DNA of 47,110 bases from Nocardioidaceae bacterium (GTDB lineage Bacteria; Actinomycetota; Actinomycetes; Propionibacteriales; Nocardioidaceae), in contig JAICKK010000006.1 in the NCBI GenBank assembly GCA_025927955.1, positions 1-47,110 on the forward strand, in the 5' to 3' direction. The number at the start of each line of letters is the position of its first letter. Position 1 is the first letter of the stretch. Position numbers and translations under genes: made by a program. A model generated the notes under the pieces. That model did no database searches. It was given only the letters and a program-made list of their open reading frames with translations, and was not told the origin of the DNA. Below, piece after piece: positions 12,209 through 30,126 of this stretch.

Positions 12209-12250
12209 ATGCGTTTCGAGATTCTCGTATGCCCTGGACGCCGCTGCTGA
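12209..12250 (+). CDS. ilvB leader peptide with Ile-Leu-Val codons
   Basis: A 13-codon ORF reading MRFEILVCPGRRC and ending in TGA. It has adjacent Ile (ATT), Leu (CTC) and Val (GTA) codons at positions 5-7; ATT and GTA are uncommon in DNA this rich in GC. It lies 28 nt before a strong intrinsic terminator and 106 nt before ilvB. This is the classic layout of ribosome-mediated attenuation, in which stalling at scarce branched-chain charged tRNAs lets RNA polymerase read through. Short ILV-containing leaders before ilvB are known from streptomycetes and other actinobacteria. A TGAGGT/ACCTCA hairpin (12248-12264) overlaps the stop codon and may be the pause or anti-terminator element. Confidence 0.8.
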   Translation: MRFEILVCPGRRC

Positions 12251-12277
12251 GGTCGACCACCTCACGCATCGCGCGTC

Positions 12278-12316
12278 GCCCCTCGTCCGCCCTCGTGGGC
12301 CGAGGGGCTTTTTGTT
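12278..12316 (+). terminator. ilvB attenuator terminator
   Basis: GCCCCTCG (12278-12285) pairs with CGAGGGGC (12301-12308), with an inner GCCC-TCGT-GGGC stem, followed directly by TTTTTGTT. It sits between the ILV leader peptide and ilvB, so it must be conditional. GGACG (12236-12240, inside the leader) could pair with CGTCC (12284-12288) as a competing structure. Confidence 0.85.
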
Positions 12317-28290: not shown

Positions 28291-28374
28291 GGGAGGGTCC
28301 TTCCGTCGGGCCGGTGAGAGGCAGGCATGCGGTGGCGGTTCCGTTGCCGCGGCGAAGGTGGCAGACTCGGAAGG

Positions 28375-28419
28375 GTGCACCACGCGAAGCTCGCTCCTCG
28401 GGAGCTCATTATCTGCTAG
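28375..28419 (+). CDS. cimA leader peptide with Leu-Ile-Ile codons
   Basis: A short ORF reading VHHAKLAPRELIIC and ending in TAG, with adjacent Leu (CTC), Ile (ATT) and Ile (ATC) codons at positions 11-13. CAGACT at 28362-28367 lies 7 nt before the GTG, suggesting a leaderless start; an alternative in-frame ATG at 28327, with GAGAGG 5-8 nt upstream, gives 30 residues with the same end. It is followed by a GC-rich hairpin over its stop codon and a strong terminator, then cimA. It lacks Val, matching citramalate synthase, which commits carbon to isoleucine. This is a typical attenuation leader. Confidence 0.75.
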   Translation: MHHAKLAPRELIIC

Positions 28420-28444
28420 CGCGCCCGATCCTCCCAGGCGCGCT
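28418..28444 (+). promoter_or_regulatory. Hairpin over the cimA leader stop codon
   Basis: AGCGCGCC (28418-28425) pairs with GGCGCGCT (28437-28444) over 8 bp. The 11-nt loop has CCTCCC (28430-28435), which is complementary to GGGAGG (28461-28466) in the terminator 3' arm, so a competing anti-terminator can form if a ribosome stalls at Leu-Ile-Ile. Confidence 0.65.
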
Positions 28445-28476
28445 GACCTCTCGTCCCCACGGGAGGTCTTTTTGTT
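28445..28476 (+). terminator. cimA attenuator terminator
   Basis: GACCTCTCGT (28445-28454) pairs with ACGGGAGGTC (28459-28468) over 10 bp with one G-T pair and a CCCC loop, followed by TTTTTGTT. The tail is identical to that of the ilvB attenuator. It sits 52 nt before the cimA ATG. Confidence 0.85.
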
Positions 28477-28527: not shown

Positions 28528-30126
28528 ATGAGCACCACCGACGGATTCCACGTCTACGACACCACCCTGCGCGATGGTGCCCAGCAGGAGGGGCTCAACC
28601 TCAACGTCGCCGACAAGCTGTCGATCGCCCGGCAGCTCGACGACCTGGGCGTGGGCTACATCGAGGGCGGCTGGCCGGGCGCGAACCCGCGCGACACCGA
28701 GTTCTTCCGCCGCGCCGCCGAGGAGCTCGACCTGCGCCACGCGACCCTCGCCGCGTTCGGGTCCACCCGGCGGCCCGGCGTCGCGGCCGCCGACGACCCG
28801 CTGGTGGCGGCCCTGCGCGACAGCGGCGCGTCCGTGGTGACGCTCGTGGCGAAGTCGCACGACCGCCACGTCGAGCTCGCCCTGCGCACGACGCTGGCGG
28901 AGAACCTCGCCATGGTGCGCGACACGGTCTCCCACCTGTGCGCGGAGGGCCAGCGGGTGTTCCTCGACGCCGAGCACTTCTTCGACGGCTACCGCGCCAA
29001 CCCCGACTACGCCCTCGACGTGCTGTGCACGGCTGCCGAGGCCGGGGCCGAGGTCGTCGCGCTGTGCGACACCAACGGCGGGATGCTGCCCGACCGGGTC
29101 GGGGACGTGGTCTCCGAGGTGCTCGTCGCCACCGGAGCGCGGGTGGGCATCCACTGCCACAACGACACCGGCTGCGCGGTGGCCAACACCCTCGCCGCCG
29201 TGGACGCCGGGGCCACGCACGTCCAGGGGACCCTCAACGGGTACGGCGAGCGCACCGGCAACGCGGACCTCGTCGCGGTGGTCGCCAACCTCGAGCTCAA
29301 GCTCGACCGCCAGGTGCTTCCGCAAGGGCGGCTGCGCGAGGCCACCCGGATCGCGCACGCCGTCGCCGAGGTCACCAACGTCCCCCCCGCGTCCCGCCAG
29401 CCGTACGTCGGGGTGAGTGCGTTCGCGCACAAGGCGGGCCTGCACGCGAGCGCCATCAAGGTCGACCCGTTCCTCTACCAGCACATGGACCCGGCCCTGG
29501 TCGGCAACGACATGCGGCTGCTGGTCTCGGACATGGCCGGCCGGGCCAGCATCGAGCTCAAGGGGGCCGAGCTCGGCTTCGACCTCGCCGGACGCCCGGA
29601 CGGCAAGGAGCTGGTCGGCCGCATCACGGCTCGGGTCAAGGAGCTGGAGGCGCGCGGCTACACCTTCGAGGCCGCCGACGCGTCGTTCGAGCTGCTGCTC
29701 CTCGAGGAGGTCGAGGGCGCCCGTCCGTCGTACTTCTCGGTCGAGTCGTGGCGGGTGATCACCGACTCGACGCCCGGTGACGAGGCGCTGTCGGAGGCGA
29801 CCATCAAGCTGCTCGCCGGGGGCGCCCGGATCATCACCACGGGAGAGGGCAACGGGCCGGTCAACGCGCTCGACCACGCGCTGCGCGAGGCGATCGGGCA
29901 GGCCTACCCCGAGGTCGCCAAGTTCGAGCTGATCGACTACAAGGTCCGGATCCTCGACCAGGGTCACGGCACGGACGCGATCACCCGCGTGCTCATCGAG
30001 ACCACCGACGGCGAGCGGTCGTGGGTGACCGTGGGCGTCGGGCACAACGTCATCGAGGCCTCGTGGGGCGCGCTGGTCGACGCCGTCACCTACGGGCTGC
30101 GCCGCAACGGCCAGCAGCCCGCGTAG
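28528..30126 (+). CDS. cimA: (R)-citramalate synthase
   Basis: CimA condenses acetyl-CoA with pyruvate to (R)-citramalate, giving 2-oxobutyrate for isoleucine without threonine. The 532-residue enzyme has the HMGL-like TIM barrel start ([15 protein letters not shown]), the metal histidines in [16 protein letters not shown], the [12 protein letters not shown] segment, and a C-terminal LeuA allosteric domain (from about residue 400: [28 protein letters not shown]). The length and start match the TIGR00977-type citramalate synthases rather than 2-isopropylmalate synthase. Start ATG 28528 has AGGA about 10 nt upstream. It is preceded by a Leu-Ile-Ile leader and terminator. Its stop codon TAG forms part of the amidase -10. 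Confidence 0.93.

Follow-up and report, generated by a model that had tools for sequence, protein, structure and literature searches.

CimA carries out the opening reaction of the citramalate pathway to isoleucine, and in a bacterium of the Nocardioidaceae the gene is preceded by a very short reading frame with isoleucine codons near its end, two hairpins and a U-rich tail. Does this arrangement form an attenuator by which the supply of isoleucine governs the transcription of cimA, and if so, how would a ribosome on the leader act on the terminator? The window, that is, the whole stretch of DNA analysed, comprises 47,110 nucleotides; it is one of the 284 contigs (C267) of an assembly with a completeness of 87%. 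A first-pass annotation had proposed an isoleucine-type attenuator before citramalate synthase, and the analysis described here compared the locus with its counterparts in other actinobacteria.

The leader and cimA

All of the features at the locus lie on the forward strand. The putative leader peptide is encoded by the reading frame VHHAKLAPRELIIC plus stop codon (28,375-28,419), which runs from a GTG at 28,375 to a TAG at 28,417-28,419 and reads Val-His-His-Ala-Lys-Leu-Ala-Pro-Arg-Glu-Leu-Ile-Ile-Cys-stop. The putative sensor codons, ATT (28,408-28,410) and ATC (28,411-28,413), form an Ile-Ile pair at 28,408-28,413, and there are no Val codons after the start. The 5' arm of hairpin 1, AGCGCGCC (28,418-28,425), overlaps the stop codon and forms 8 bp with the 3' arm GGCGCGCT (28,437-28,444); the loop contains CCTCCC (28,430-28,435). 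The 3' arm abuts the predicted intrinsic terminator hairpin (28,445-28,468; 10 pairs and a 4-nt loop) with 0 nt between the two, and the U-rich tail TTTTTGTT (28,469-28,476) follows directly. The GGGAGG complementary to CCTCCC occupies 28,461-28,466 of the terminator. Every part that the first-pass annotation had listed was thus present where it had been placed. The folding energy of the leader is -41.8 kcal/mol (z = -3.41), and none of 200 shuffled sequences was as low. A terminator scan returned one terminator in 3 kb as compared with 0.4 (sd 0.8) in shuffles, a weak excess when taken alone.

A likely -10 box, CAGACT (28,362-28,367), is located 7 nt 5' of the leader start, and its position suggests a leaderless transcript. 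Blocks resembling TGTGGCAnACT were seen by eye, uncounted, at the matching position in many relatives. A sigma-70 scan of the locus found no promoters. Just 5' of the leader the reading frame seems, by eye, to be on the minus strand.

The presumed regulated gene, cimA, begins with ATG at 28,528, 51 nt 3' of the leader element, and extends to 30,126. Its earlier designation as citramalate synthase proved sound, with a match to TIGR00977 of 651.4 bits over a cut-off of 450, and its product contains the domains HMGL-like, HCS_D2 and LeuA_dimer. We take cimA to act in the pathway of isoleucine, the amino acid named by the leader codons. Further branched-chain genes in the window are ilvB (at 12.4 kb), leuB and ilvE, the last about 3 kb from cimA. 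Elsewhere in the same genome a protein (G000:C120:4331-5461) scores above the cut-off of TIGR01127, a model for threonine deaminase; with this match besides cimA, both routes to 2-oxobutanoate may exist in the organism.

Conservation of the leader upstream of cimA

A search of 58 genomes of relatives identified cimA in 47, of which one partial gene was dropped; the remaining 46, which include the gene of the organism itself, were pooled with 77 of 80 named loci (three that start inside cimA were dropped) to give, minus 2 duplicates, 121 cimA upstream regions. These were examined with a finder blind to codons, which looked for a GC-rich stem directly next to a terminator and its T-run, with 0-3 nt allowed between the hairpins. 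Two abutting hairpins were found in 67 of the 121 regions, among them those of Kribbella, Nonomuraea, Cellulomonas, Demequina, Pseudonocardia, Amycolatopsis, Kutzneria and Lentzea. Tandem Ile codons were present no more than 24 nt 5' of hairpin 1 in 60 of the 67 elements, compared with 209 of 5947 24-nt windows from the same regions. The seven elements without a tandem pair each keep one Ile codon there, and an Ile codon starts 7, 8 or 9 nt 5' of hairpin 1 in all 67. Because the loci share descent, these counts are not independent trials; the conservation of the element across cimA upstream regions makes chance untenable. The counts were drawn from the codon-blind finder since the extraction of leaders for the alignment (A2) and for the search model (R1) demanded tandem Ile codons and is therefore circular for codon counts.

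The choice of codon points in the same direction. Of the 118 Ile codons that make up the leader runs, 55 (47%) are ATT, as opposed to 24 of 850 (3%) in the cimA coding sequences of the same 52 loci (Fisher p = 1.4e-37, uncorrected for kinship), and the cimA genes compared have a GC content of 70%. The rarity of ATT in the cimA genes makes its use in the leader look selected, as in sensor codons. The short reading frames before cimA in relatives end in or near Ile codons, and the residues outside the Ile run vary widely.

With the strict finder, 54 of the 121 upstream regions had no element, and these cover nearly all loci outside the organism's class; the finder overlooks at least six loci that are present in alignment A2 (L032, L035, L056, L076, L084 and L093). 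An ilvE gene, recognised by pattern, ends within 101 nt 5' of cimA in 12 of the 121 regions, none of which contains the element, and from these loci the attenuator appears to be absent where cimA closely follows ilvE. At L082 both are found upstream of cimA, ilvE ending 326 nt before it. Two loci of the Acidimicrobiia have the same layout upstream of cimA with different stem sequences (L116, also caught by the codon-blind finder, and L130, recognised by eye). In the Nitriliruptoria the leaders upstream of cimA at L101 and L103 end in TIIIRPLP and IGIIRLLP and carry no T-run; other stems can, by eye, form after them, and a different control, translational or Rho-dependent, is possible at these loci.

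The structure of the element was assessed with RNAalifold, which on 56 aligned sequences returned the two hairpins with compensatory change in 11 of 20 pairs. Paired cells amounted to 96.2% as compared with 86.5% in shuffles and two-sided changes to 113 cells as compared with 33.2, values reached in neither case by any of 500 shuffles; a two-sided change was seen in 11 pairs as compared with 8.7, a number matched by 8 of the 500. In helix 2, the terminator, 98.9% of the cells are paired, again with compensatory changes, and when the hairpin pairing was slid out of register only 40-58% of the cells paired. The two hairpins hold the six column pairs with the strongest covariation and eight out of the top ten. 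Apart from one cell, no change occurs in the bottom five pairs of hairpin 1 (GCGCG/CGCGC), and as they hardly vary an alternative partner of the hairpin base would be invisible to covariation. The alignment of leaders upstream of cimA that had been advised for testing the earlier proposal was thus carried out, and with Ile codons and covarying hairpins conserved in relatives it speaks for an isoleucine-type attenuator before citramalate synthase.

On the genome scale, model R1, built from the 56 aligned cimA leaders, matched in 204 of the 296 genomes examined from the class, and cimA was found in 236 of the same 296. Among the best 150 R1 matches, 100 are followed on the same strand, at a distance of 15-223 nt, by a listed cimA; 2 lie away from cimA although the gene is listed for their genomes, and for the other 48 the cimA of the genome is not among the matches listed. 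Examination of 24 of these 48 placed 22 before cimA (20 by tblastn and 2, both in G308, by eye) and 2 before ilvB (G067, G107). Conversely, of 150 listed cimA genes at most 50 have no listed R1 match upstream, many of them in small genomes of family f29; the figure is an upper bound because weaker R1 matches fall outside those listed. A sample of the phylum contained R1 matches in 47 of 198 genomes, 37 of them outside the class. Twenty matches outside the class were fetched, of which 15 precede ilvB, 2 leuA, 3 a gene that was left unclassified and none cimA, so that the R1-like version of the cimA leader may be confined to the class.

Further observations were made in the course of this search. 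One assembly carries the cimA attenuator and the cimA start twice, in near-identical form, on two contigs (G308:C3 and G308:C24), either through duplication or through redundancy of the assembly. At L163 (G156:C6) and L164 (G237:C37) the element, again with Ile codons, stands before a short reading frame. The 107-residue protein of L164 has no Pfam or NCBIfam match at the thresholds used and gives the impression of a slight likeness to an ACT domain or to the small subunit of acetolactate synthase.

Related leaders before ilvB, leuS and leuA

When R1 was run on 38 chosen genomes, further and mostly weaker matches were obtained, 20 of which were fetched: 5 before ilvB, 13 before leuS, 1 before leuA, and 1 that resembles a tRNA gene and was set aside as chance. 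The model, although built from cimA leaders, matches ilvB leaders with an E value of 2.7e-16 at best (G107); it also matches the leuS leader of the same genome as the window (G000:C21, MSMHTRLLLGRPR...) with an E value of 0.0038, together with 12 other leuS leaders. The leuS piece of this genome, a 401-residue fragment, scores 486 against a family cut-off of 548, and the remaining leuS assignments were made by likeness read by eye. Among the leuA pieces, L218 and L231 exceed the cut-off for 2-isopropylmalate synthase and the fragment L193 reaches 531.5 against 532. At these three loci (L193 in G107, L218 in G393, L231 in G368) leuA is preceded by the terminator chassis, with Leu predominating among the codons.

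The three codons 5' of hairpin 1 change with the gene. They specify Ile in 45 of 60 cases before cimA; Val in 34, Leu in 18 and Ile in 12 of 66 before ilvB (64 of 66 in all); Leu in 32 of 39 before leuS; and Leu in 8 of 9 before leuA. The organism's own leaders follow suit, with ...ELIIC before cimA, MRFEILVC... before ilvB and MSMHTRLLLG... before leuS. For comparison, the ilvB leader in the window consists of the reading frame MRFEILVCPGRRC plus stop codon with Ile-Leu-Val (12,209-12,250, forward strand) and, recognised by eye, a terminator-like hairpin with a T-run on the same strand (12,278-12,313); the R1 search listed no match at this leader (12,209-12,313). Judged by the comparison of leaders, one RNA chassis serves the branched-chain genes, and the presumptive sensor codons fit the product of each gene.

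Attenuators at ilvB and leuS have already been published (PMC1262725, PMC11857589, PMC8079986). Like the cimA leader, the ilvB and ilvBNC attenuators of Corynebacterium, Mycobacterium and Streptomyces combine an intrinsic terminator with a short, often leaderless reading frame that contains branched-chain codons (PMC1262725, PMC11857589, PMC10272879, PMC13236596). The cimA-built model retrieves ilvB leaders as well; unlike the ilvB leaders, those of cimA contain mainly Ile codons, and the gene regulated would be cimA. The leuS attenuators of Streptomyces (PMC1262725, PMC8079986) likewise have a leader peptide and a terminator, but they use Leu codons and control the gene of a tRNA synthetase. 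The LEU element of actinobacterial leuA, which also places a leader peptide ahead of an enzyme from the protein superfamily of CimA, is described in PMC1262725 as a pseudoknot, its Leu codons pairing with the Shine-Dalgarno box, whereas the leuA leaders of L193, L218 and L231 display the terminator chassis instead. Elements at trp, cys, ilvB, leuA, leuS, trpS and ileS are named in PMC1262725; PMC8079986 treats eight leaders of S. lividans, and its main text mentions neither citramalate nor cimA. The word citramalate is also absent from the main texts of PMC10272879, PMC13236596 and PMC2965389. Among the matches listed in the literature searched, with supplements and most subscription papers outside its scope, no attenuator for cimA was found, in agreement with the earlier surmise that the element may be new.

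Experiments on the related elements bear on the question in both directions. In M. tuberculosis the replacement of LVVI by AAAA in the ilvB1 leader abolishes induction (PMC13236596), and a test of the related C. glutamicum ilvBNC attenuator has been published (PMC11857589). Counting against the attenuator reading are codon substitutions in the ilvB leader of S. coelicolor, which left regulation unaffected as reported by Seliverstov et al. 2005 (PMC1262725).

A possible path from a stalled ribosome to the terminator

A reading frame with Ile codons at a fixed spacing, hairpin 1 and an abutting intrinsic terminator are all conserved in the sequences compared, and they very probably constitute a ribosome-mediated transcription attenuator that ties the expression of cimA to charged Ile-tRNA. 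The polymerase would start at or beside the GTG, and a ribosome would load at the 5' end of the RNA and trail the polymerase. As long as Ile-tRNA is plentiful, the ribosome would pass the Ile codons and reach the stop, and transcription would end at the terminator. A shortage of Ile-tRNA would arrest the ribosome on these codons, its front edge reaching the base of hairpin 1, and the polymerase would continue into cimA. The weakest step in this sequence is the way in which the stall would block the terminator.

The spacing of the elements sets the terms for this step. With the front edge of the ribosome taken, by assumption, as the A-site plus 12 nt, a ribosome at the first Ile codon has its edge between 5 nt before and 4 nt into hairpin 1, and within 2 nt of the hairpin base in 55 of the 67 elements. 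Once it has moved to the last Ile codon, 3-5 nt of the hairpin lie under it in all 67, and at the stop codon it covers at least 9 nt on the side of the 5' arm. By this front-edge geometry a ribosome held at the first Ile codon should mostly leave room for hairpin 1 to fold next to it, and one at the stop codon should not. The stop codon itself is found at -3 to 0 in 46 and at +7 to +19 in 21 of the 67 elements; its position varies and that of the Ile codons is constant, which indicates that the Ile codons rather than the stop are kept in place. In the preferred model, a stalled ribosome would leave hairpin 1 free to fold next to it and a ribosome at the stop would prevent this; once folded, hairpin 1, which abuts the terminator, would hamper the closing of the terminator stem. 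Within the attenuator reading, such hindrance by the adjacent hairpin has a chance that we put a little below even. The more general proposition, that a widespread two-hairpin chassis lacks an antiterminator helix, that the folding of hairpin 1 beside the stall decides termination sterically or kinetically, and that only the codons have been swapped among ilvB, leuS, leuA and cimA, is offered tentatively and is rather unlikely to hold in full.

Leader peptides of the E. coli trp, his and leu operons control an intrinsic terminator through codons for the end product, and they do so by means of a defined antiterminator helix; none was identified for the cimA leader. The same attenuator could nevertheless work in the classical way, with a stalled ribosome that covers part of hairpin 1 and thereby frees its loop or 3' arm for pairing with the terminator. 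The 3-5 nt that a ribosome at the last Ile codon covers would suit this alternative, and pairing of the loop with the 3' arm of the terminator is of the kind proposed for the Corynebacterium ilvB-II motif (PMC10272879). The first-pass annotation had suggested a switch between CCTCCC and GGGAGG, and in the window this pairing is strong: the duplex of loop and 3' arm of the terminator has an energy of -14.0 kcal/mol (shuffle p = 0.015). As a conserved switch it was rejected. The duplex energy attained p < 0.05 in just 3 of 61 loci, and the longest exact complement of loop and terminator gave p = 0.06 in the window and p < 0.05 in none of 67 loci; the pairing is good in the window and is not shared across the loci. 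Pairing of the 3' arm of hairpin 1 with the 5' side of the terminator, the classical 2:3 helix, recurred in ribosome-masked folds; it was possible at 58 of 67 loci, hardly above the 50.4 expected by chance, and was dropped. Over all loci, one of six tests showed slightly more pairing with the terminator than expected for the inner part of the 3' half of hairpin 1 (mean z -0.33, p = 0.003). An outward extension of hairpin 1 into the base of the terminator, which resembles an overlap described for C. glutamicum, is possible in the window but, by eye, not in the common TAGGCGCG...CGCGCA form. The leader coding sequence pairs with the 5' arm of the terminator in the window (p = 0.045), and across loci its pairing with either terminator arm was not above chance. 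Covariation provided no third helix, as the 2 of the top 10 column pairs that lie outside the hairpins form none, and in ribosome-masked folding of four states the probability of the terminator remained high throughout (median 0.98, lowest 0.70). A conserved alternative helix was thus not found by covariation, duplex energy or masked folding, and the near-invariant lower stem of hairpin 1 would hide one from view. On balance the classical antiterminator is possible but doubtful. In the model for M. tuberculosis ilvB1 (PMC13236596) an antiterminator forms next to the stalled ribosome, and a ribosome at the stop masks it. The geometry of the cimA leader is similar, but in the common form of this leader hairpin 1 and the terminator share no pairs.

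Hindrance by hairpin 1, like the classical switch, presupposes that the leader reads the charging of Ile-tRNA. It might instead sense the general speed of translation or encode a stalling peptide, and the rare ATT may be a slow codon in GC-rich genomes anyway. Arguing against a stalling peptide or a mere speed sensor are the wide variation of the leader residues outside the Ile run and the shift of the codons with the gene product on a shared chassis, which render this explanation improbable. An RNA that senses tRNA or a metabolite, such as a T-box, a ppGpp riboswitch or another riboswitch with a terminator, would account for a terminator before a biosynthetic gene; at the gathering threshold, however, Rfam recognised just two tRNA genes elsewhere in the window, and at a permissive threshold four matches of at most 16 bits in the region, far under the gathering scores, so that we consider it very improbable. 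Least probable of all is the explanation that the hairpin simply ends an upstream or antisense transcript and that the reading frame before it is there by chance, for which the single terminator where 0.4 were expected could be cited, against Ile codons in a fixed place, enrichment of a rare codon and covarying hairpins, all conserved upstream of cimA.

The comparative evidence makes it highly likely that cimA is preceded by a conserved isoleucine attenuator, and actinobacterial cimA would thereby gain an isoleucine-specific control element. The Ile codons before cimA, set against the Leu codons of its leuA-family relatives on a shared chassis, support the view that TIGR00977 proteins serve the synthesis of isoleucine. 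Across ilvB, leuS, leuA and cimA the product and the sensor codon change jointly, and these leaders form a natural codon-swap series that would offer a clean system in which to study termination without a visible antiterminator. For actinobacteria employed in the production of isoleucine or citramalate, the cimA leaders would mark sites for editing.
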